Shown here piece by piece: positions 3,845-35,330 of a stretch of 40,212 bases of DNA. The position numbers were made by a program, and so were the translations under genes. The notes beneath the pieces were generated by a model. The model was not told the origin of the DNA and searched no databases. It saw only the letters and a list, made by a program, of their open reading frames with translations. Within the stretch, counting starts at the first letter, position 1; every line of letters starts with the position of its first letter. Source of the DNA: Magnetospirillum sulfuroxidans (GTDB lineage: Bacteria > Pseudomonadota > Alphaproteobacteria > Rhodospirillales > Magnetospirillaceae); NCBI RefSeq assembly GCF_018224925.1, contig NZ_JAGTUF010000027.1, forward strand, positions 1 through 40,212, given 5' to 3'.

Positions 3845-4947
3845 GCATCGATCGCCTGCACATGGAACTGGGGGAACGCGGATACGATATCTTGATCGGC
3901 TCCGGCCTGCTGGACCAGACCGGGGCGCTGATGGCGCCGGTGATGCGCGGCAAGCGCGCCTTCGTCGTCACCGACGATCAGGTCGGCCCGTTTTATCTGG
4001 AACGGGTCCTGACCTCGCTCGACAAGGCCGGCATCAGCCATGACCACACCGAAATCAGCCATGGCGAATACAGCAAGGATTTCGCCCATCTGGAAGCCCT
4101 GGTCGATTCCATGCTCGACGCCCGCTGCGAACGCTCGACCATGATCGTAGCCCTGGGCGGCGGCGTCGTCGGCGACCTGACCGGTTTCGCCGCCGCCATT
4201 TTGCAGCGCGGCGTCGATTTCGTCCAAATCCCCACCACCTTGCTGGCCCAGGTCGATTCCTCGGTCGGCGGCAAGACCGGCATCAACACCAAGAAGGGCA
4301 AGAATCTGGTTGGCGCCTTCCATCAGCCCCGTCTGGTGCTGGCCGATATCTCGGTGCTGGACAGCCTGCCGCGCCGTCAGGTTCTGGCCGGTTATGCCGA
4401 AGTGATCAAATATGGCTGTATCGACGATGCCGATTTCTTCACCTGGCTGGAAGCCAATGGCGACAAGGTCATCGACGGCGACATCACCGCCCGCCGCTAC
4501 GCGGTGGCCATTTCCTGCCGGGCCAAGGCCCGCATCGTCGCCGCCGATGAGCGCGAAGGCGGTATCCGCGCCTTGCTGAATTTGGGTCACACCTTCGGCC
4601 ATGCGCTGGAAGCGGAAACCGGTTATGGCGACGAGATTTTGCACGGCGAAGCCGTCGCCCTTGGCATGATCATGGCTTTCCGCCTGTCGGCCCGCATGGG
4701 ACTGGCTCCGGCCGCCGACGTCATCCGGCTGGAAACCCATCTTGATCGCCTGGGCCTGCCGGTCCGGCTGTCCAAGCAACGTCACTGGGACGTGCAAAGG
4801 CTGGTTCAGCACATGGCCGGCGATAAAAAGGTCAAGGATGGCAAGATCACCTTTGTCCTTGCCCATGGCATCGGCAAAAGCTTCTTGACCCCGGATGTGC
4901 CGGAACAGGCGGTGCATGACATGCTGTCAGAGTTCATCGGAGCTTAA
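3841..4947 (+). CDS. aroB: 3-dehydroquinate synthase
   Basis: A 368-residue dehydroquinate synthase, converting DAHP to 3-dehydroquinate with NAD and a divalent metal, the second step of chorismate synthesis. The NAD-binding signature ALGGGVVGDLTGF is present near residue 105, followed by the PTTLLAQVDSSVGGKTGIN block and the metal-site region GHTFGHALE. ATG 3841 overlaps the aroK stop and has GGAG eight bases upstream; a GTG at 3832 would add three residues but is less likely. The next gene starts immediately after the stop codon, so aroK-aroB-corC-like form one transcription unit. Confidence 0.95.
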   Translation: MSIDRLHMELGERGYDILIGSGLLDQTGALMAPVMRGKRAFVVTDDQVGPFYLERVLTSLDKAGISHDHTEISHGEYSKDFAHLEALVDSMLDARCERSTMIVALGGGVVGDLTGFAAAILQRGVDFVQIPTTLLAQVDSSVGGKTGINTKKGKNLVGAFHQPRLVLADISVLDSLPRRQVLAGYAEVIKYGCIDDADFFTWLEANGDKVIDGDITARRYAVAISCRAKARIVAADEREGGIRALLNLGHTFGHALEAETGYGDEILHGEAVALGMIMAFRLSARMGLAPAADVIRLETHLDRLGLPVRLSKQRHWDVQRLVQHMAGDKKVKDGKITFVLAHGIGKSFLTPDVPEQAVHDMLSEFIGA

Positions 4948-8399: not shown

Positions 8400-8986
8400 G
8401 GGATCAGTTCCCCGTTTTCGCGCAAAAAATCCAGCAAAGGCAGCAACGGCAGACCCAAAATGGTGAAATGGTCGCCCTCGACCAGCATGAACAATTGCGC
8501 CCCCACCCCTTCCAATTGATAGGCTCCGACCGAAGTCAGCACCCCGTCACCGGCCCGCGTCAGGTATTCGCCAAGGAAATCGTCAGAAAACCGCCGCATG
8601 GTCAGTTTGGCGCTATCGGTATGATGCCACAGCCGGCGGCCGTCGCGCACCGCCACCACCGCCGAGGTCAGCCGATGGGTCTTGCCGCGCAAGGCCCGCA
8701 ATTGTGCCGCCGCCGCCTCGGCATCGGCGGGTTTGTCGAACCAGGCGCCATCGCAATCGAGCATCTGGTCGGCGCCGATGACGATCATCCCCGGATGCTT
8801 GGCCGACACCCGCATCGCCTTCATTTCCGCCAGGGTTTCCGCCACGCGGGCGGGATGATCGGTTTCCAGGCGCAACGCCTGCTTGATGCCCTCTTCATCC
8901 ACCGGCAGGGCGTGAACCTGAAACTCCACCCCGGCCGCCGCCAGCACGGCGCGGCGAGTGGCCGAGCCCGAAGCCAAGACGATCAT
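8396..8986 (-). CDS. maf: Maf-family nucleotide pyrophosphatase
   Basis: A 196-residue Maf/HAM1-like protein, a house-cleaning nucleoside triphosphate pyrophosphatase; family members act on dTTP/UTP or 7-methyl-GTP and some affect septation. The signature LASGSATRR lies at residues 4-12, and IGADQMLDCDG carries the conserved acidic residue. A KTHRLTSAV segment follows, typical of the family. The subclass (YhdE or YceF type) cannot be settled by eye. The start overlaps the ppsR stop (ATGA) and the stop overlaps the aroE start. Confidence 0.9.
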   Translation of the reverse strand: MIVLASGSATRRAVLAAAGVEFQVHALPVDEEGIKQALRLETDHPARVAETLAEMKAMRVSAKHPGMIVIGADQMLDCDGAWFDKPADAEAAAAQLRALRGKTHRLTSAVVAVRDGRRLWHHTDSAKLTMRRFSDDFLGEYLTRAGDGVLTSVGAYQLEGVGAQLFMLVEGDHFTILGLPLLPLLDFLRENGELIP

Positions 8987-9810
8987 GCCTTGCCGTCCTG
9001 CTTGGCCTTATGTTGACCGTATAATTGCATGATGGTGGCCGAAGCTTCCTCGATCGACCGGCGGGTGACATCGACCACCGGCCAGCCATGGCGGGTGAAC
9101 AGCTTGCGGGCGCTGGCGACTTCGTCACGCACCTTTTCGAATTGGGCGTATTCCGATTCCTCGTCATGATTAAGGAAGCGCAGGCGCGCCCGGCGGATAT
9201 CGGACAGGCTTTTCGGATCCTTGGTCAAACCGACAACCAGCGGCGTGCGAACATTTTCCAAGGATTTCGGCAACGGCACGCCGGGAACCAAGGGATAATT
9301 GGCGCATTTCATCCCGCGATTGGCCAAATACATGCACGTCGGCGTCTTCGACGTCCGCGATACGCCGACGACGACGATATCGGCGTCTTCCACATGGTCC
9401 ATCAATTGGCCGTCATCATGGGCCAAGGTGAATTGCATGGCGTCGATGCGGGCGAAATATTCGGCGTCCATCTGATATTGCCGACCCGGCGTCGCGTGGC
9501 TTTCGGCGTTCAAATAGCCGGCCAACGCCCCCATTACCGGATCAAGCACCGGAATGAACGGCACCCGCATATGGCGGCAGGCTTCTTCCAGAACACCACG
9601 CACGGCGACATCGACCAAGGTGCAAAGGACAATGCCGGGATTGGCCTCGATCCCGGCGATCACCCGTTCCACCTGGCCTTGCGAACGGACCAGCCACCAA
9701 TTGTGCTGATTGGCGTGAATGCCCTCGAACTGCACCATGCAGGCGCGCACCACCGACGTGACGGTTTCGCCGGTGGCGTCGGAAACCAGATGAAGATGCA
9801 AAGAATCCAT
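8983..9810 (-). CDS. ppsR: Pyruvate, water dikinase / PPDK regulatory protein (DUF299)
   Basis: A 275-residue bifunctional kinase/phosphorylase of the DUF299 family, which switches PEP synthetase or pyruvate phosphate dikinase on and off by ADP-dependent threonine phosphorylation and Pi-dependent dephosphorylation. It starts MDSLHLHLVSDATGET, the standard opening, and has the P-loop-like GVSRTSKTPT at 149-158. ATG 9810 was chosen from that opening; the longer open frame runs through the origin region. Which dikinase it regulates cannot be told here. It heads the five-gene minus-strand chain, and its 5' end borders the predicted replication origin, a placement known in other alphaproteobacteria where this gene and hemE flank the origin. 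Confidence 0.92.
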   Translation of the reverse strand: MDSLHLHLVSDATGETVTSVVRACMVQFEGIHANQHNWWLVRSQGQVERVIAGIEANPGIVLCTLVDVAVRGVLEEACRHMRVPFIPVLDPVMGALAGYLNAESHATPGRQYQMDAEYFARIDAMQFTLAHDDGQLMDHVEDADIVVVGVSRTSKTPTCMYLANRGMKCANYPLVPGVPLPKSLENVRTPLVVGLTKDPKSLSDIRRARLRFLNHDEESEYAQFEKVRDEVASARKLFTRHGWPVVDVTRRSIEEASATIMQLYGQHKAKQDGKA

Positions 9811-10222
9811 GAGCCTGTGAATCACGTCGAAGAGTGGGGATAAGTCGCGAGTTACCAACAGGGGGTCTGATTCGCCCCCCACTGATACCGATTCCGCCCC
9901 GCTTTCGACCCGGAGGGGAAAAAAACAAGGCGGTTCCGCGACAATAGCGTGAATCACGCTCGGCTTCACCCGCTTTCCCCCGTTATCCACGCTTTTACGA
10001 CGGCGAAAACCGTCTATAAAAAGCAACGGCTTACGGTTGTTTGCGCCATTTTTTCCCCAGGCCTGACCAAAATCATCCCCGGCCGTGGGTCATTCTGTGT
10101 AAAGCCTGTGGATGGACTCGCATCCCCGATATCCACAGGACCAACAACCTCAGCAACCTTTCCCTTAAGATTCAAAACTTGTAGAACACACCCCAGGTCA
10201 GCAATGCGAAGGACCAAAGCCC
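9811..10222. other. oriC: Predicted chromosomal replication origin (oriC)
   Basis: A 412 bp non-coding segment between divergent ppsR and hemE, the classical origin position in Caulobacter and Rickettsia relatives. Four sites resemble the DnaA box TTATCCACA: 9835-9843 (minus, TTATCCCCA, 8/9), 9983-9991 (plus, TTATCCACG, 8/9), 10107-10115 (minus, CCATCCACA, 7/9) and 10129-10137 (plus, ATATCCACA, 8/9). GANTC, the CcrM methylation site, occurs at 9819, 9869, 9890, 9951, 10115 and 10169, plus 9803 just inside ppsR. An A/T-rich stretch around 10006-10055 lies between the box pairs and could be the unwinding element. parS sites and parAB lie 6-13 kb away, as expected for an origin domain. It also carries the promoters of ppsR and hemE. 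Confidence 0.8.
9946..9960. repeat. Palindrome inside the origin region
   Basis: AGCGTGA-A-TCACGCT is a perfect 7-bp-arm inverted repeat around one central base. Its core GTGAATCACG recurs at 9817-9826, seven bases upstream of the ppsR start codon. Both copies contain a GANTC site. It may be an operator for ppsR/hemE or a binding site for an origin regulator; the sequence does not say which. Confidence 0.6.
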
Positions 10223-11260
10223 GTGACCTCGACCAAGCCCTTTTTGCGCGCTCTTGCCGGCGAAACCATCATCCCGCCACCGTTCTGGTTGATGCGCCAA
10301 GCTGGCCGCTATCTGCCGGAATACCGGGCAACCCGGACCCAGGCCGGATCCTTCCTTGACCTGTGCTACAACCCGGAACTGGCCGTCGAAGTCACCTTGC
10401 AGCCGTTACGGCGCTTCGGTTTCGATGCCGCCATCTTGTTTTCCGACATTTTGGTGGTCCCCGACGGTTTGGGGCAACATGTCGCGTTCAAGGAAGGCGA
10501 AGGTCCGGTTCTCGCGCCGATTCGCTCAGCAAGGGATGTGGATGGTCTTGACCTCTCGGGTCTGCACCAACGCATGGCTCCGGTCTATGCCACTGTTTCC
10601 GGGCTTTCCAAGGCAATTCCCGCCACCACCGCGCTGATCGGTTTCGCCGGAGCGCCATGGACGGTGGCCACCTACATGATCGAAGGCTCTGGCTCGAAGG
10701 ATTTCGCCAACGCCAAGCGCCTGATGTGGTCCGAACCCGAGACTTTTGCCCGGCTGATGAATTTGCTGATCGAGGCCACCGGGCAATATCTGATCCAGCA
10801 GATTGACGCCGGGGCCGAAGCCATTCAGATTTTCGACACCTGGGCCGGGGCTTTGCCGGAAACCGAATTCCGCCGCTGGGTGATCGAACCGGCCCGTCAA
10901 TTGGTCGAACGCATTCATTGCGAACGCCCCGGTGTCCCGGTCATCGGCTTTCCCCGCGGGGCCGGTATTTTGTACGAAGCCTATGTCACCGAGACCAAGG
11001 TTGACGGTGTCAGTCTGGATTCCTCGGTTCCGCTGGACTGGGCCGCCCGCGTTCTCCAACCAAAATGCACGGTCCAGGGCAATCTTGATCCGATTTTGCT
11101 GGTGGCCGGGGACGAAGCCCTGGATGCCGGCATTGATCGAGTCCTCAAGGCCTTGGCCAAGGGACCGTTCATTTTCAATCTTGGACACGGCATCATCCCG
11201 CCGACGCCGCCGGAAAACGTCGCCCGTCTGGCCGAACGAATCAAAGCATTCAAAGGCTAA
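10223..11260 (+). CDS. hemE: Uroporphyrinogen decarboxylase
   Basis: A 345-residue enzyme removing the four acetate carboxyls of uroporphyrinogen III to give coproporphyrinogen III in haem and bacteriochlorophyll synthesis. The N-terminal signature [16 protein letters not shown] (R25, R29) binds substrate carboxylates, and [12 protein letters not shown] carries the catalytic Asp. [16 protein letters not shown] and the late [13 protein letters not shown] block are also typical. The start is GTG 10223, with AAGGA about ten bases upstream; no in-frame ATG fits. It is the first gene right of the predicted origin and is followed three bases after its stop by hemH. Its promoter must lie within the origin segment, so expression may respond to origin firing, as described for Caulobacter hemE. 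Confidence 0.96.
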
Positions 11261-11263
11261 AAG

Positions 11264-12256
11264 ATGACCAAGAGTGCCGTCATTTTGTTCAATCTGGGTG
11301 GTCCCGATAGTCTGGACGCGGTCAAACCATTCCTGTTCAATTTGTTCAATGACAAGGCGATCATCGGCGCGCCACAGCCGATTCGCTGGTTGCTCGCCAA
11401 GTATATTTCCGGCAAACGTGCCCCTATCGCCCGCGACATCTATGGGCAATTGGGGGGGAAATCACCGTTATTGGAACAAACCGAGGATCAGGCCAAGGCC
11501 TTGCAAGATTTGCTTGGCAAGGATTTCAAGGTCATTGTCGCCATGCGCTATTGGCACCCCTTTGCCGCCCAGGCCTTGGCCGAAGCCAAGCAATGGGGGG
11601 CACAGCGGGTAATCCTGCTGCCGCTTTATCCGCAATTTTCCACCACCACCAGTGGTTCATCCTTGAAGCAATGGCATCAATTGGCCGGTGCCAGTTTTGA
11701 GGAAAGCCTGACGGTTTGTTGCTATCCCGTGCAACCAGGCTTGATTCGGGCCATGGCGGAAAATCTGCGACGCGAATGGGACAAGGCGATTGCTTTCGGC
11801 ACGCCGCGTCTGTTGTTTTCCGCCCATGGTCTGCCGCAAAGCATCATTGATAAGGGCGATCCTTATCAACTTCAGGTCGAACAGACCGCCAAAGCGGTGG
11901 TGGATGAGCTTGGCATCGCCCAATTGGACTGGGCGATTTGCTATCAAAGCCGGGTTGGTCCGGCCAAATGGATTGGTCCGAGCACCGAAGCCGAATTGGA
12001 ACGCGCCAGCCGCGACAACGTGCCGGTGGTGGTCACGCCGGTGGCCTTTGTTTCCGAACATTCCGAGACCTTGGTGGAACTGGACATCGAATATCGCCAT
12101 GTGGCGGAAAAATTAGGCATTCCCGCTTATTTCCGCGCCCCGGCGGTGAGTTCTCATCCTGAATTCATCAAAGGCTTGGCCGAATTGGTTGCCGATCCGA
12201 CGGCTTTGCGCGGCAAGGCCTGCGGTAAAATCTGTTGTCAGGCGGAGGGAATATGA
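11264..12256 (+). CDS. hemH: Ferrochelatase
   Basis: A 330-residue ferrochelatase inserting Fe(II) into a porphyrin, the last step of haem synthesis. The N-terminal NLGGPDSLDAV is characteristic, the catalytic His is H188 in FSAHGLP, and the acidic partner is E268 in SEHSETL. The C-terminus ends RGKACGKICCQAEG with C320, C324 and C325. Some alphaproteobacterial ferrochelatases hold a [2Fe-2S] cluster using C-terminal cysteines, so these may be ligands (inference). The stop overlaps the hemJ start as ATGA. Confidence 0.95.
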   Translation: MTKSAVILFNLGGPDSLDAVKPFLFNLFNDKAIIGAPQPIRWLLAKYISGKRAPIARDIYGQLGGKSPLLEQTEDQAKALQDLLGKDFKVIVAMRYWHPFAAQALAEAKQWGAQRVILLPLYPQFSTTTSGSSLKQWHQLAGASFEESLTVCCYPVQPGLIRAMAENLRREWDKAIAFGTPRLLFSAHGLPQSIIDKGDPYQLQVEQTAKAVVDELGIAQLDWAICYQSRVGPAKWIGPSTEAELERASRDNVPVVVTPVAFVSEHSETLVELDIEYRHVAEKLGIPAYFRAPAVSSHPEFIKGLAELVADPTALRGKACGKICCQAEGI

Positions 12257-19168: not shown

Positions 19169-21046
19169 GTGTTTCACGTGAAACCCCAGGAAAAAATAAG
19201 CTGTGATGTTCTGGTCATCGGCGGCGGTCATGCCGGCGCCGAGGCGGCGGCGGCCAGTGCGCGCTTTGGCGCTCGCACCATTTTAGCCACCCAGCGGTTG
19301 GAGACCATCGGCGAGATGAGCTGCAACCCGGCCATCGGTGGCTTGGCCAAGGGTCAGCTGGTGCGCGAGATAGACGCCCTTGACGGGGTGATGGGCCAGG
19401 CCATTGATCGTGGCGGCATCCAGTTTCGCATCCTTAATCGCAGCAAGGGACCGGCGGTGCAGGGGCCACGGGCCCAGGCCGATCGCAAGCTCTATCGCCA
19501 GGCGGTGCAGAGCTTGCTGGCCGAACAGGCCAACCTGACCTTGTTGCAGGGCTCGGTCGAGGATCTGCGCTATGAACAGGGGCGGGTAACCGGCGCCGTG
19601 TTGGCCGATGGCCGCCTGATCGAGTGTGCGGCGGTGGTGGTCACCACCGGGACCTTCTTACGCGGGCTGATCCATTGTGGTGAACAGACCTGGCCCGCCG
19701 GTCGCTTTGGTGACGCGCCGTCCAATGGCTTGTCGGCGGCTTTGGCCCGGGCCGGTTTGCCGCTTGATCGCTTGAAGACCGGAACCCCGGCGCGCCTTGA
19801 CGGGCGCAGCATCGATTGGGCCAGTCTGGACATGCAGGCCGGCGATGATCCGCCGGTGCCGTTTTCCTATCTGACCACGGCGATCACCACGCCGCAGATC
19901 GCTTGTGGCATCACCCATACCAGCGAACGGACCCATGCCATCATCCGCGCCAATCTGGCGCGGGCGCCCATGTATTCCGGCCAGATCCAAAGCGTTGGAC
20001 CGCGCTATTGTCCGTCGATCGAGGACAAGGTGGTGCGCTTCGCTGAAAAGCAGAGCCACCAGATTTTTCTCGAACCCGAGGGTCTGGACGACGACACGGT
20101 TTATCCCAACGGCATTTCCACCTCGCTGCCGGCTGACGTGCAAGAGGCGATGATCCATACCATCCCCGGTCTGGAACACGTCACCATCCTTCGCCCCGGC
20201 TATGCCATTGAGTACGATTTCGTCGATCCCCGGCAGCTCAAGCGGTCGCTGGAAACCAGAGTGATGGGCGGATTGTTCCTGGCCGGTCAGATCAACGGCA
20301 CCACCGGTTACGAGGAAGCCGGCGCCCAGGGTCTGCTGGCCGGTCTCAACGCCGCCCGCTGGGTTGGGGGTTCCGAGCCGTTCATCCTTGATCGCGCCGA
20401 TGGCTATATGGGGGTGATGGTCGATGATCTGGTGTCGCTGGGCACGCGTGAACCCTATCGGATGTTCACCTCACGGGCTGAGTACCGTCTGATCCTGCGC
20501 GCCGACAATGCTGATCTGCGGCTTACCGCCAAGGGCATGGCGGCCGGCTGTGTCGGCAGTGTCCGTGCCGCCGCCTTTACCGCCAAGGCGGAAGCGTTGC
20601 AGCAGGGCAGGGCGCTGCTGGCGTCATTGCGGGCCTCGCCCAATGTGCTGAAGAAAGCCGGGCTTGAAGTCAATCAAGATGGGGTGGTGCGTTCGGCCTG
20701 GGACTTGCTGGCTTATCCCAACATGGACTTGACCCGCTTGACGGCAATCTGGCCGGACTTGATTTCGCTGAGTGGGGCGGTGGCCGAGCAATTGGAAATC
20801 GACGGCAAGTATCAGGGCTATCTGGCGCGACAGCAGGCCGATATCCATGCCTATCGGCGGGAAGAGGATTTGGCCTTGCCGGCAGAAGTCGATTACGATG
20901 CCATCGGTTCGTTGTCGGCCGAGGTGCGGCAAAAGCTGAAAGCGGCGCGGCCCGAGACCTTGGCGGCGGCGGCCCGCATCTCCGGGGTGACCCCGGCGGC
21001 GATTACCGCGCTGTTGGCTCATGTCAAACGGCGCAATGTCGCCTAA
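19169..21046 (+). CDS. mnmG: tRNA uridine 5-carboxymethylaminomethyl modification enzyme MnmG (GidA)
   Basis: A 625-residue FAD-dependent partner of MnmE. The dinucleotide-binding motif is GGGHAG (18-23). [10 protein letters not shown] and [13 protein letters not shown] contain the two conserved redox cysteines. [18 protein letters not shown] block near residue 370 is typical. The start is GTG 19169 directly after the mnmE stop, or the next in-frame GTG at 19178. The first codons (FHVK) are formed by a parS site at 19170-19185, as in other alphaproteobacterial gidA genes. Confidence 0.95.
19170..19185. promoter_or_regulatory. parS: parS centromere site on the mnmG start codons
   Basis: TGTTTCACGTGAAACC matches the palindromic parS consensus TGTTTCACGTGAAACA at 15 of 16 positions. 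It overlaps the mnmG GTG start and encodes the FHVK residues. ParB would nucleate here, 2 to 4 kb from its own gene and about 9 kb from the predicted origin. Confidence 0.88.
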
Positions 21047-21053
21047 CCCATAT

Positions 21054-21689
21054 ATGGTGTTTCACGTGAAACAAGACCACAAGAATGACGGCCCGGAAAT
21101 TTTGGCCTTCCTGGCTTTGCCCGAGCAATCCATCGCCAAGCTGGTGCTGTATGCCGCGCTGTTGGAGAAGTGGCAAAAACGCATCAATCTGGTTGGCTCC
21201 GATACCATCCCCAGCCTGTGGCGCCGGCATTTCCTCGATTCGGCCCAGCTTTTCCCGCTTCTTCCCCAAAATACCCACAGACTTATCGACATGGGCAGCG
21301 GCGCCGGTTTCCCCGGTTTGGTCTTGGCCATCTTGGGGGTGGACGACGTGCATCTGGTCGAATCGGATACGCGCAAATGTGCTTTCTTGCGCGAAGTCGC
21401 CCGCGTCACCGAAACCAAGGTGACGATTCATAATGACCGCATCGAAAAAGTTCCGCCGCTAAAAGCCAGTGTGGTGACGGCGCGGGCCTTGGCATCGCTC
21501 AGTAAATTGCTGATTTGGGCCGAACCGCACCTGTTGCCCGGCGGCCACTGCCTGTTTCTAAAAGGCCAGGCGGCGGAAGACGAATTGACCGAAGCGGCCA
21601 AAGAATGGAATATCGCAGCGCAACGGGTGCCGTCGCTGTCGGACCCATCCGGCTCAATCCTTCACCTGCAAGAGGTTCGCCGTGGCTGA
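21054..21689 (+). CDS. rsmG: 16S rRNA (guanine-N7) methyltransferase RsmG (GidB)
   Basis: A 211-residue SAM-dependent methyltransferase modifying G527 (E. coli numbering) of 16S rRNA. The SAM loop is IDMGSGAGFPGLVLAI, preceded by LLEKWQKRINLVG and RRHFLDSAQL, both family signatures. ATG 21054 gives MVFHVKQ; an earlier ATG (21036, inside mnmG) would add six residues, and neither has a strong ribosome site, so coupling to mnmG translation is likely. A perfect parS lies on the first codons. The stop overlaps the parA GTG by eight bases. Confidence 0.93.
   Translation: MVFHVKQDHKNDGPEILAFLALPEQSIAKLVLYAALLEKWQKRINLVGSDTIPSLWRRHFLDSAQLFPLLPQNTHRLIDMGSGAGFPGLVLAILGVDDVHLVESDTRKCAFLREVARVTETKVTIHNDRIEKVPPLKASVVTARALASLSKLLIWAEPHLLPGGHCLFLKGQAAEDELTEAAKEWNIAAQRVPSLSDPSGSILHLQEVRRG
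21058..21073. promoter_or_regulatory. parS: parS centromere site on the rsmG start codons
   Basis: TGTTTCACGTGAAACA is a perfect 16-bp palindrome identical to the parS sequence known from Bacillus-type and Caulobacter chromosomes. It starts four bases downstream of the first base of the rsmG ATG, encoding the FHVKQ residues. It is the strongest parS in the window and the best candidate for the main ParB loading site. Confidence 0.95.
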
Positions 21690-22485
21690 GTTTGGCAAAA
21701 AGCCTACCCGTATCATTGCCATCGCCAATCAAAAGGGCGGGGTGGGCAAGACCACCACCGCCATTAATCTGGCCACCGCCATGGCCGCGACCAAGAAGAC
21801 GGTGCTGTTGATCGACCTGGACCCCCAGGGCAATGCCAGCACCGGTTTGGGCATTCCCCGCGATGCCCGCGACGTCAATTCCTATCATGTGCTGATCGGC
21901 GAGGCCGGCTTGGCCGAAACCACCCACGACACCGAAATCCCCGGCCTGAAAGTGGTGCCGTCGGGCGTCGATCTGTCCGGGGCCGAGATCGAATTGGTCG
22001 ACATGGAACGGCGCGAGGTTCGGTTGGCCGAAGCGCTGAAGCCGGCGCTGGGCGCCTATGATTATGTTCTGATCGATTGCCCGCCATCGCTCAATCTGCT
22101 GACGCTGAACGCCCTGGTGGCGGCGCATTCGGTGATGGTGCCGCTGCAATGCGAATTCTTCGCCCTGGAAGGCATCAGCCATCTGGTCAAGACCATCGAA
22201 GCGATCCGCAAGGGCTTTAACCCGACGCTGGAATTGCAAGGCATCGTCCTGACCATGTTTGACAAGCGCAATAATCTGACCGAACAGGTCGCCGCCGATG
22301 TGCGCGAATTCTTCGGTGAAAAGGTCTACAAGACGGTCATTCCGCGCAATGTCCGCATTTCCGAGGCGCCGTCCTATGGCAAGCCGGTGCTGATCTATGA
22401 TCACAAATGTGCCGGTTCCGAAGCCTATATCCATCTGGCGGCGGAAGTGCTCAAGCGCGAATTGGCCTCTGGCAAGGGAGTTTAA
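21682..22485 (+). CDS. parA: Chromosome partitioning ATPase ParA
   Basis: A 267-residue ParA/Soj ATPase that segregates origin regions with ParB. The deviant Walker A is KGGVGKTT (18-25, with signature Lys at 18), Walker A' is DLDPQGNAS, and Walker B lies in YVLIDCPPS. There is no N-terminal HTH domain, as expected for chromosomal (type Ib-like) ParA. The start is GTG 21682, overlapping the rsmG stop by eight bases. parB follows five bases after its stop. Confidence 0.96.
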   Translation: MAEFGKKPTRIIAIANQKGGVGKTTTAINLATAMAATKKTVLLIDLDPQGNASTGLGIPRDARDVNSYHVLIGEAGLAETTHDTEIPGLKVVPSGVDLSGAEIELVDMERREVRLAEALKPALGAYDYVLIDCPPSLNLLTLNALVAAHSVMVPLQCEFFALEGISHLVKTIEAIRKGFNPTLELQGIVLTMFDKRNNLTEQVAADVREFFGEKVYKTVIPRNVRISEAPSYGKPVLIYDHKCAGSEAYIHLAAEVLKRELASGKGV

Positions 22486-22490
22486 GAACG

Positions 22491-23405
22491 GTGGCGGAAG
22501 AGAAGCGTCGTAAGTTGGGTCGGGGCCTGTCGGCCCTGTTGGGCGATTCAGGCGTTGCCGCGGCGACCGCCGTGGCCGAGGGGGCGGCCGCCTTGGCCGA
22601 CGATTCGGTCCCGGCTCCCTTGGGTTTGCGCAATCTGCCGGTATCCCAGCTTAAGCCGGGCAAGTTCCAGCCACGCCGGCAATTCGACGAAGCCGCCATT
22701 GCCGATCTGGTCGAATCGGTGCGGACCAAGGGGGTGTTGCAGCCCATCTTGGTGCGGCCGTTCGAGGGCATGTACGAGATTATCGCCGGTGAACGGCGGT
22801 GGCGGGCGGCGCAGCGGGCGCAGTTGCACGAAGTTCCGGTCATTATCCGCGATCTCAGCGACAAGGAAGCGCTGGAAGTCGCCTTGGTCGAAAACCTGCA
22901 ACGCCAGGATTTGACCGCCTTGGAAGAAGCCGAGGGTTATCGCCGTCTGGTCGAGGAATTCAGCCACACCCAGGAAGAACTGGCCAAGGCGGTGGGCAAG
23001 TCGCGCAGCCATGTTGCCAACATGATGCGCCTGTTGGCCTTGCCGGGGCCGGTCAAGGATCTGCTGGACCAGGGCAAGCTGTCGGCGGGCCATGCCCGTG
23101 CCTTGCTGACCTCTGAGGATCCGGTCGGTCTGGCTCATCAGGTGGTGGACAAGCAATTGAATGTCCGTCAGACCGAAAAGTTGGCTGGTGGCGAGGTTGC
23201 GGCTAAGCCGGCCAAGGCCAAAACCCAGGGCAAGCTGTTCGACAAGGATGCCGATACCGCCGCCCTGGAACGGGATTTGACCGAGCAATTGGGCTGTCGG
23301 GTGAGCCTGACCAGCAGCGGCAAGGGTGGTGAGCTGACCATCCATTATGGCAATCTGGAACAGTTGGACGACATCTTGTCGCGGCTGTCGCGTTCCGGGG
23401 TTTAA
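22491..23405 (+). CDS. parB: Chromosome partitioning protein ParB (CTPase)
   Basis: A 304-residue ParB that binds parS and clamps onto DNA in a CTP-dependent way. The N-terminal ParA-stimulating peptide KRRKLGRGLSALLG is at 6-18. The CTP-binding motifs are GERRWRA (100-106) and ENLQRQDL (134-141). The helix-turn-helix that reads parS covers about 160-182 (TQEELAKAVGKSRSHVANMM), and a C-terminal dimerisation domain ends the protein. GTG 22491 was chosen from the conserved N-terminus; GGGAG lies upstream, inside the end of parA. Two clear parS sites lie 1.4 and 3.3 kb upstream. Confidence 0.96.
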   Translation: MAEEKRRKLGRGLSALLGDSGVAAATAVAEGAAALADDSVPAPLGLRNLPVSQLKPGKFQPRRQFDEAAIADLVESVRTKGVLQPILVRPFEGMYEIIAGERRWRAAQRAQLHEVPVIIRDLSDKEALEVALVENLQRQDLTALEEAEGYRRLVEEFSHTQEELAKAVGKSRSHVANMMRLLALPGPVKDLLDQGKLSAGHARALLTSEDPVGLAHQVVDKQLNVRQTEKLAGGEVAAKPAKAKTQGKLFDKDADTAALERDLTEQLGCRVSLTSSGKGGELTIHYGNLEQLDDILSRLSRSGV

Positions 23406-34566: not shown

Positions 34567-35330
34567 GACTGGAATTGTTCGTTGAGGATGCGTTCTTCCA
34601 GATTGTGTTCCGGGTCGAACAGCAAGCTCAGGCCGACGCTGCGGTCTTCACGCACCTCGACCTCGACGACGTCGCGGGCTTCGGTGTAATCGGCCACCGC
34701 CGAAACCGGGCGCTTGGGGGCTTCAAGCACTTCGAACGACACGCGGGCGTGTTGCGGCAAGAGCGCGCCGCGCCACCGTCGTGGCCGAAAGGCGGAAATC
34801 GGGGTCAGCGCCAAGATATCGGATCCTAACGGAATGATCGGGCCGTGCGCCGACAGGTTATAGGCGGTCGAACCGGCGGCGGTGGCGACCATGATGCCGT
34901 CACAGATCAACTCGTCCAGACGTTCCTTGCCGTCAATGCGAATGCGGATCTTGGCCGCCTGACGGGTTTGGCGGAACAACGAGACTTCGTTGATGGCCAG
35001 GGCCTCGATCTCGGAATTATCGGCCAGACGCGCTTTCATGCGCAGCGGATGCAGCAGCACCGGCTGGGCGCGGTGCAACCGCTCCATCAGGCCGTGCTCG
35101 CGGAAGGAATTGAGCAAAAAGCCGACCGAACCGCGATTCATGCCATAGATGGGAACCTTGCGGTCAAGCCAACGATGCAGGGTTTCCAAAACAAAGCCGT
35201 CACCGCCCAAAGCGACGATGATGTCGGCCTGATCGGGCGGCACATGGGGATAACGATCCATCAGCCGCGCCAGCGCGGCCTGACCCGGCTGGGTGTCGGC
35301 GGCGACAAAGGCGATCTTGGAAAAGCTCAT
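34563..35330 (-). CDS. nadK: NAD kinase
   Basis: A 255-residue NAD kinase producing NADP from NAD. The GGDG motif is at 42-45 ([10 protein letters not shown]), and NEVSLFR plus [22 protein letters not shown] form the substrate and NAD site. Length is typical of short alphaproteobacterial NadK. ATG 35330 fits the usual N-terminus. It sits between moaA (46 bp upstream) and the AbrB-family gene (ATGA overlap), probably in one transcript. Confidence 0.95.

Follow-up and report, generated by a model that had tools for sequence, protein, structure and literature searches.

The locus between ppsR and hemE

The stretch of DNA that was analysed (the window) is the whole contig C19 of 40,212 bp, which belongs to a draft genome of 60 contigs and 4,132,710 bp. 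It contains a gap of 412 bp between two divergent genes, which were identified by profile matches as ppsR on the minus strand and hemE on the plus strand. A sequence-only reading of the same DNA had placed a gap between these two genes at 9811-10222, and the extent turned out to be exact. The gap, its borders and the only RNA gene of the window are as follows:

8983..9810, minus strand: ppsR (DUF299/COG1806), left border; NF003742 with 335.6 bits, PF03618 with 316.4 bits
9811..10222, no strand: predicted oriC, the entire ppsR/hemE gap; 412 bp, 54.1% GC
10223..11260, plus strand: hemE, right border; TIGR01464 with 416.9 bits
28911-28982, minus strand: tRNA gene (Rfam)

According to protein-family matches in the window, ppsR is followed by the leftward-reading genes dnaQ, aroE and maf, and hemE by the rightward-reading genes hemH, hemJ, rho, mnmE, mnmG, rsmG, parA and parB. 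The AT content of the gap (45.9%) exceeds that of its surroundings (33.8 to 45.0% in 2-kb windows). The A/T-rich centre that had been ascribed to the gap could not be recovered: the 50 bp with the highest AT content lie instead at the hemE edge (10141-10190, 60%), and near the centre the maximum is 54%. A search against Rfam returned nothing in the gap and the single tRNA gene within the whole window. At 361-1332 on the minus strand, the window also encodes a XerC/D-like protein of the phage integrase family (PF00589).

DnaA-box-like sites in the gap

Three 9-mers in the gap match the sequence TTATCCACA with at most one mismatch, at 9835 on the minus strand and at 9983 and 10129 on the plus strand, and dinucleotide shuffles of the gap yield 0.06 such sites (p about 0.002). 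With at most two mismatches, seven sites are present vs 0.87 expected from the same shuffles (p about 0.002). Perfect copies of TTATCCACA occur neither in the gap nor anywhere on contig C19, and the genome has 13 of them elsewhere. From the sequence alone, four DnaA-box-like 9-mers had been reported, three of them with one mismatch. These three were found again, and the fourth is probably the site at 10107 on the minus strand, which has two mismatches; the four are best read as 9835 (minus), 9983 (plus), 10107 (minus) and 10129 (plus). Apart from the site at 10129, which is part of a box pair described below, the box-like sites are:

9816..9824, minus strand: DnaA-box-like TGATTCACA; at most one mismatch to TTATCCACA in 14/22 family members, degraded in the window
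9835..9843, minus strand: DnaA-box-like TTATCCCCA, conserved; at most two mismatches in 21/22 family members
9983..9991, plus strand: DnaA-box-like TTATCCACG, not conserved; at most one mismatch in 1/12 genus and 3/22 family members
10051..10059, plus strand: DnaA-box-like TTTTCCCCA; at most two mismatches in 18/22 family members
10107..10115, minus strand: DnaA-box-like CCATCCACA; two mismatches

In the family alignment, the box at 10129-10137 likewise has at most two mismatches in 18 of the 22 members. The spacing and orientation of the boxes (minus, plus, minus, plus) had been regarded as specific to the lineage. This arrangement is no lineage signature because the box at 9983 is kept in only one of the genus and three of the family members. 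Across 36 ppsR/hemE gaps of relatives, 97 boxes with at most one mismatch were counted, whereas 3.3 were expected from shuffles.

A comparison with 138,805 bases of the same genome revealed two stretches that equal the gap in box number. The stretch C6:34400-36000 also has three boxes with at most one mismatch. They lie at about 450-1100 of this locus around a gene start, and one of them is perfect. We take the gene beside them to encode a ribonucleotide reductase, and judged from these sites it may be regulated by DnaA. At two mismatches, the region near 24.36 kb on contig C8 equals the gap with seven boxes, which lie inside near-identical repeats. At about 4300-4800 of this locus, several near-identical head-to-tail units with ATTATCCGAATATG give rise to a false two-mismatch box cluster.

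GANTC sites and cell-cycle regulators

The gap is also rich in GANTC sites:

starts at 9803, 9819, 9869, 9890, 9951, 10115 and 10169, no strand: GANTC sites, 9803 inside ppsR and the other six in the gap

Six sites in the gap and a seventh just inside ppsR had been noticed before, and all were confirmed; shuffles predict 1.6 sites in the gap (p about 0.006). With seven sites, no other 412 bp in the 40 kb are as rich in GANTC, the next best having four. The sites at 9951 and 10115 are each kept in 10 of the 12 genus members and the other five in 1 to 5 of 12. In total, 50 sites vs 18.1 expected were found in the genus, 259 vs 96.4 in the class gaps and 25 vs 21.5 in the other gaps of the order, the last of which rules out GANTC enrichment as a general rule.

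The RAMA domain is linked to CcrM, and a CcrM-like RAMA domain is present in the genome; the control search was positive in Caulobacter only. GcrA was found in the order relative G040 and was not found in the own genome or in the genus member G007. This speaks against control by GcrA and CcrM, and therefore only methylation remains. Methylation of the GANTC sites by the CcrM-like enzyme may tune the origin or contribute to its timing. Furthermore, no CtrA site with at most one mismatch occurs in the window gap, and a search for IHF sites gave one match with one mismatch at 10021 and no exact match. Control by CtrA as in Caulobacter was discarded for lack of a good site in the window gap, and with its one imperfect match control by IHF appears less likely. 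In these features, namely the missing CtrA and exact IHF sites, the six GANTC sites and the GcrA that was not found in the own genome or in G007, the locus differs from the Caulobacter crescentus origin Cori. CtrA sites are not seen in most other origins either, as stated in an excerpt of PMC4468827. They are a Caulobacter specialisation and not a property of the wider ppsR/hemE type.

Gene order, strand asymmetry and partition genes

The divergent ppsR/hemE gap is present at 36 of the 37 ppsR loci in 41 related genomes, the exception being G030, which lacks a hemE match. Class-wide, 62 of 80 hemE loci have this gap and were used as class loci; the other 18 have no ppsR in the stretch examined, and one of these (L202) ends at a contig border. 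Cori lies between hemE and COG1806, and Rickettsia origins share these borders, as described in the available part of PMC1914354. The match in position with the Caulobacter and Rickettsia origins, which had been proposed from the sequence, is borne out by these same borders. Moreover, Cori and the predicted Rickettsia origins have in common with the gap a length of about 400 bp, weak boxes and a raised AT content (PMC1914354 and PMC4468827, both in excerpt). One record titled Bacillus subtilis (L209) carries an alphaproteobacterial-like hemE beside ppsR, and its title is probably wrong. In the genome G033, in which ppsR was not found, a 419-bp gap between hemE and maf (C56:35000-40000) keeps CTACTACAACAACC near hemE and contains no box with at most one mismatch.

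The strand asymmetry of the own genome, a 60-contig draft, was followed within the window, where it is negative on the left side of the gap and positive on the right side. The cumulative G-C minimum is located at 11650, 1.4 kb to the right of the gap; the keto curve has its minimum at 10396. In G040, a complete single-contig genome of the order from which 40 stretches were sampled, the skew minimum is the 10-kb piece 3,412,001-3,422,000, which contains the hemE/ppsR gap, and the cumulative maximum near 1.5 Mb lies opposite the gap. In G007, a single contig of 4,365,796 bp from the same genus (66 stretches sampled), ppsR lies at 3.39 Mb, opposite the skew maximum near 1.15 Mb. The sampled cumulative minimum of this genome was found at 2.95 Mb (-20.0) vs -18.2 at ppsR, about 0.44 Mb apart, with a flat course from 2.95 to 3.4 Mb. 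As this minimum is flat and broad, G007 is compatible with an origin at the gap and not decisive.

The dnaA gene lies apart from the gap, starting at position 402 in G007 and 346 in G040. In the own genome it is found on contig C8, where the region around it (36,000-43,000) has one box with at most one mismatch. An origin beside dnaA was rejected in view of the position of the gene and the near absence of boxes around it. The distance between dnaA and the gap is consistent with the statement, in an excerpt of PMC8116508, that dnaA is not kept near ori in the Rhodospirillales. Two outcomes had been named in advance as speaking against the gap, a skew minimum that clearly lies in another place and a better candidate region around dnaA. 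Neither was observed, the minimum of G007 being broad.

The partition genes had been placed together with parS within 13 kb of the gap, and the parS-like sites, parA and parB indeed all lie within about 13.2 kb:

16260, no strand: parS-like 16-mer, 3 mismatches
19170..19185, no strand: parS-like site, one mismatch
21058..21073, no strand: parS TGTTTCACGTGAAACA, no mismatch
21682..22485, plus strand: parA; best NCBIfam match ParA_partition with 114.8 bits, below the cut-off of the model
22407..23405, plus strand: parB; TIGR00180 with 201.2 bits

A further parS match with 3 mismatches at 34606 is probably due to chance.

Conserved blocks and the hemE-side box pair

The main fixed parts of the 22 family gaps are a left pair of boxes (9816 and 9835, both minus) and a right pair of the form ATCCCC-N4-TCCACA. 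Two further blocks between them are kept in the genus and in most of the family at constant spacing, and they are not good DnaA boxes:

9940..9955, no strand: conserved block GACAATAGCGTGAATC, which holds the GANTC site at 9951; GTGAAT[CT] on the plus strand in 17/22 family, 0/14 other order and 14/62 class gaps
9967..9980, no strand: conserved block CACCCGCTTTCCCC; GCTTTCCCC in 15/22 family, 1/14 other order and 1/62 class gaps
10122..10137, plus strand: co-oriented box pair ATCCCCGATATCCACA, ATCCCC-N4-TCCACA; first box weak, second box 10129-10137

The right pair is present in 21 of the 22 family gaps (in L019 as ATCCAC), in one of 14 other gaps of the order and in 6 of 62 class gaps. The exception within the family, L023, has ATCCCCAGGATACACA where the other family gaps have the box pair. 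The motif is not unique, with 0 to 4 copies per genome and two in the own genome. The second own copy, searched as ATCCMC-N4-TCCACA, is located on contig C60 at 1013-1028. In the order, 79 of 95 gaps have ATCCCC at a distance of 60-190 bp before hemE vs 4.0 expected.

Triplets and unstable DNA after the box pair

In the window, the box pair is followed by the four-base GC-rich spacer GGAC and by six triplets that begin with C:

10142..10159, plus strand: C-first array CAA CAA CCT CAG CAA CCT, read on the minus strand; proposed degenerate DnaA-trio array
10149..10188, no strand: lowest stability of any 40 bp in the gap and fourth lowest in the 40-kb window; proposed DNA unwinding element

The order set comprised 101 stretches (37 + 64), from which six without hemE (L095, L291, L293, L307, L325 and L326) were dropped, and the resulting 95 gaps are a part of the genomes matched. 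The ATCCCC anchor is present in 57 of 71 non-family and 22 of 24 family gaps. In the family gaps, runs of C-first triplets have a mean of 4.38 vs 2.89 after shuffling, a value that none of 2000 shuffles reached, and all 22 anchored family gaps have at least three C-first triplets within the 24 nt that follow the pair, vs 12.3 gaps expected and at most 20 in any shuffle. In the non-family gaps of the order, at least three C-N-A triplets follow within 24 nt of the anchor in 45 of 57 cases vs 1.7 expected; the related genomes are non-independent, so that these shuffle tests overstate the weight somewhat. At least three C-N-A triplets occur on the plus strand of 63 of the 95 order gaps, family included. 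Among the controls, the minus strand gave 3 and the complement 4 of 95, and the reversed sequence (38/95) was set aside because CAA arrays stay CAA when they are reversed. When the frame was set by the C in first place only, the third base was A in 79% of the triplets, and the second was A, T or C in 51, 34 and 14%, respectively; the bound strand of the order relatives thus reads 3'-GNT-5'. Their arrays most often begin 19 or 20 bases downstream of ATCCCC (31 of 64 runs) and lie 77 to 123 nt from hemE (10th to 90th percentile). In the class, gaps anchored on TATCCACA gave no triplet-run signal (214 of 2000 shuffles reach the value), and at least three C[TAC]A near hemE were found on the plus strand of 13 of 62 gaps and on the minus strand of none.

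The array after the pair in the window itself follows neither the C-N-A rule nor the published rule described below. Its best frame begins 20 bases after ATCCCC, within the offset of 19 or 20 common in the order, most family members fit 18 or 21, and the alignment has a one-base difference at the array. For this offset, an insertion or deletion of one base must be assumed. The array is proposed to be a degenerate trio array by its position and its relatives and not by its own letters.

DnaA residues and the published trio rule

In B. subtilis, DnaA reaches its trios (consensus 3'-GAT-5') by way of two co-oriented boxes. The published search required at least three 3'-NAN-5' triplets with a middle adenine, and bench experiments were carried out for S. 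aureus, L. monocytogenes, E. faecalis, H. pylori, S. elongatus and D. radiodurans (PMC8287927, in excerpt). Asn187 touches the middle base, where thymine or guanine lowered activity and cytosine did not, as given in the accessible part of PMC10721633. The window resembles the basal unwinding system (BUS) of B. subtilis in the order and orientation of its parts, namely two adjacent co-oriented boxes, a short GC-rich spacer, triplets and unstable DNA. However, the BUS trios need a middle adenine (PMC8287927, in excerpt), which none of the six triplets after the pair in the window has, and in the 3'-GNT-5' triplets of the order relatives the middle base is T, A or G.

Applied to the sequence that follows the pair, the NAN rule picks out 13 of the 57 non-family gaps vs 10.6 expected, which is no excess. 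The BUS calls for at least three 3'-NAN-5' triplets within 16 bp of the box, and none of the 22 family gaps has them in the 24 nt behind the pair. Run with the box and spacer settings of its own, the rule finds 39 of 71 non-family and 12 of 24 family gaps, which are raw counts without a shuffle of the whole rule. In its permissive form it matches only GTCATTCTG in the window, which lies before the pair.

Inspection of 32 DnaA proteins, one per locus and four of them from the family, revealed Tyr at position 187 in 30 and His in two; no genome in the set has Asn187. All 32 proteins have Lys at 202 and Glu at 228, and the own DnaA has Tyr, Lys and Glu where B. subtilis has Asn187, Arg202 and Glu228. 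In this set, which holds only DnaA proteins with Tyr or His, these residues fit a free middle base. Taking the residues and the triplets together, we tentatively suggest, as a possibility rather than a probability, that the DnaA of this order opens the origin on 3'-GNT-5' instead of 3'-NAN-5' triplets and that trios with a variable middle base are a working element. In this reading, the first base (bound by Lys202 and Glu228) and the third would be kept, and the middle base would be free because Tyr or His takes the place of the contacting residue, which is Asn187 in B. subtilis. Equally tentative, as part of the same proposal, is that the family of the window has moved still further away, to C-first triplets (3'-GNN-5') preceded by a hardened pair, which would carry more of the specificity. 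Within the part of the DnaA-trio literature on alphaproteobacteria and Caulobacter that was covered, no variable middle base was found for this order, and novelty is not claimed.

Proposed mechanism and alternative explanations

Position, gene order, boxes, the local skew turn, gene orientation, parABS and the skew of relatives agree with the prediction from the sequence-only reading that the gap is an origin. On these grounds, the gap 9811-10222 is very probably the chromosome replication origin, of the alphaproteobacterial ppsR/hemE type. As an origin it is of a known kind and was to be expected, and its position is textbook for the class. The opening site is probably the hemE-side module, as judged from the box pair and its position. 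DnaA-ATP would load on the weak sites, for which the pair at 10122-10137 would provide the platform, and the DnaA filament would then extend toward hemE over the triplet strand. The duplex would open at about 10142-10190, where the helicase would be loaded, and replication would proceed both ways. ParB bound to parS 6 to 11 kb away would move the new origins. We have good confidence in this explanation as a whole, i.e. an origin that is opened by DnaA on the hemE side through the box pair and the triplets.

A start of the chromosome at another place, with the gap being an ordinary divergent promoter region that contains box-like sites, is very improbable. Such a view can draw on the skew of the own genome, which is limited to the window of a draft assembly, on the broad minimum of G007 and on the stretch C6:34400-36000 with its equal number of sites at one mismatch. 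However, the skew of G040, the gene orientation, parABS, the persistence of the gap throughout the order and the precedent of Caulobacter (PMC1914354, in excerpt) all argue against it. An origin that opens at another place in the gap, with the hemE-side pair serving only as a loading or regulatory site, is unlikely. For instance, 9983-10022 ranks second among the least stable 40-bp stretches of the gap and has box-like sites on both sides. Yet its conservation is poor and the genus alignment has gaps in it, whereas the pair and the sequence behind it have been retained, and the triplet arrays of the order relatives lie after the pair, at their distance of 77 to 123 nt from hemE.

The fairly constant distance to hemE across the order can also be read in another way, in which the array belongs to a leader or promoter of hemE, such as a C/A-rich leader, and not to the origin, while the origin call stands. 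The array kept beside hemE in G033, which lost ppsR, points in the same direction. We consider this slightly less likely than opening elsewhere in the gap. The array starts are concentrated 19 or 20 bases after ATCCCC, and 17 class loci with hemE and without ppsR also speak against it: within 125 nt of hemE, a C[TAC]A run occurs in none of the eight without a box (at most one mismatch, 600 bp) and in three of the nine with boxes, although these numbers are small. In one of the boxless class loci (L223), a C[TAC]A run is located at 311 from hemE.

If the reading with a free middle base is true, the base-capture model of B. subtilis needs a second mode. Programs that demand a middle adenine would miss such modules or find them at chance level. 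Moreover, the gaps of this order together with their DnaA proteins would be a natural series for working out which residue reads which base.
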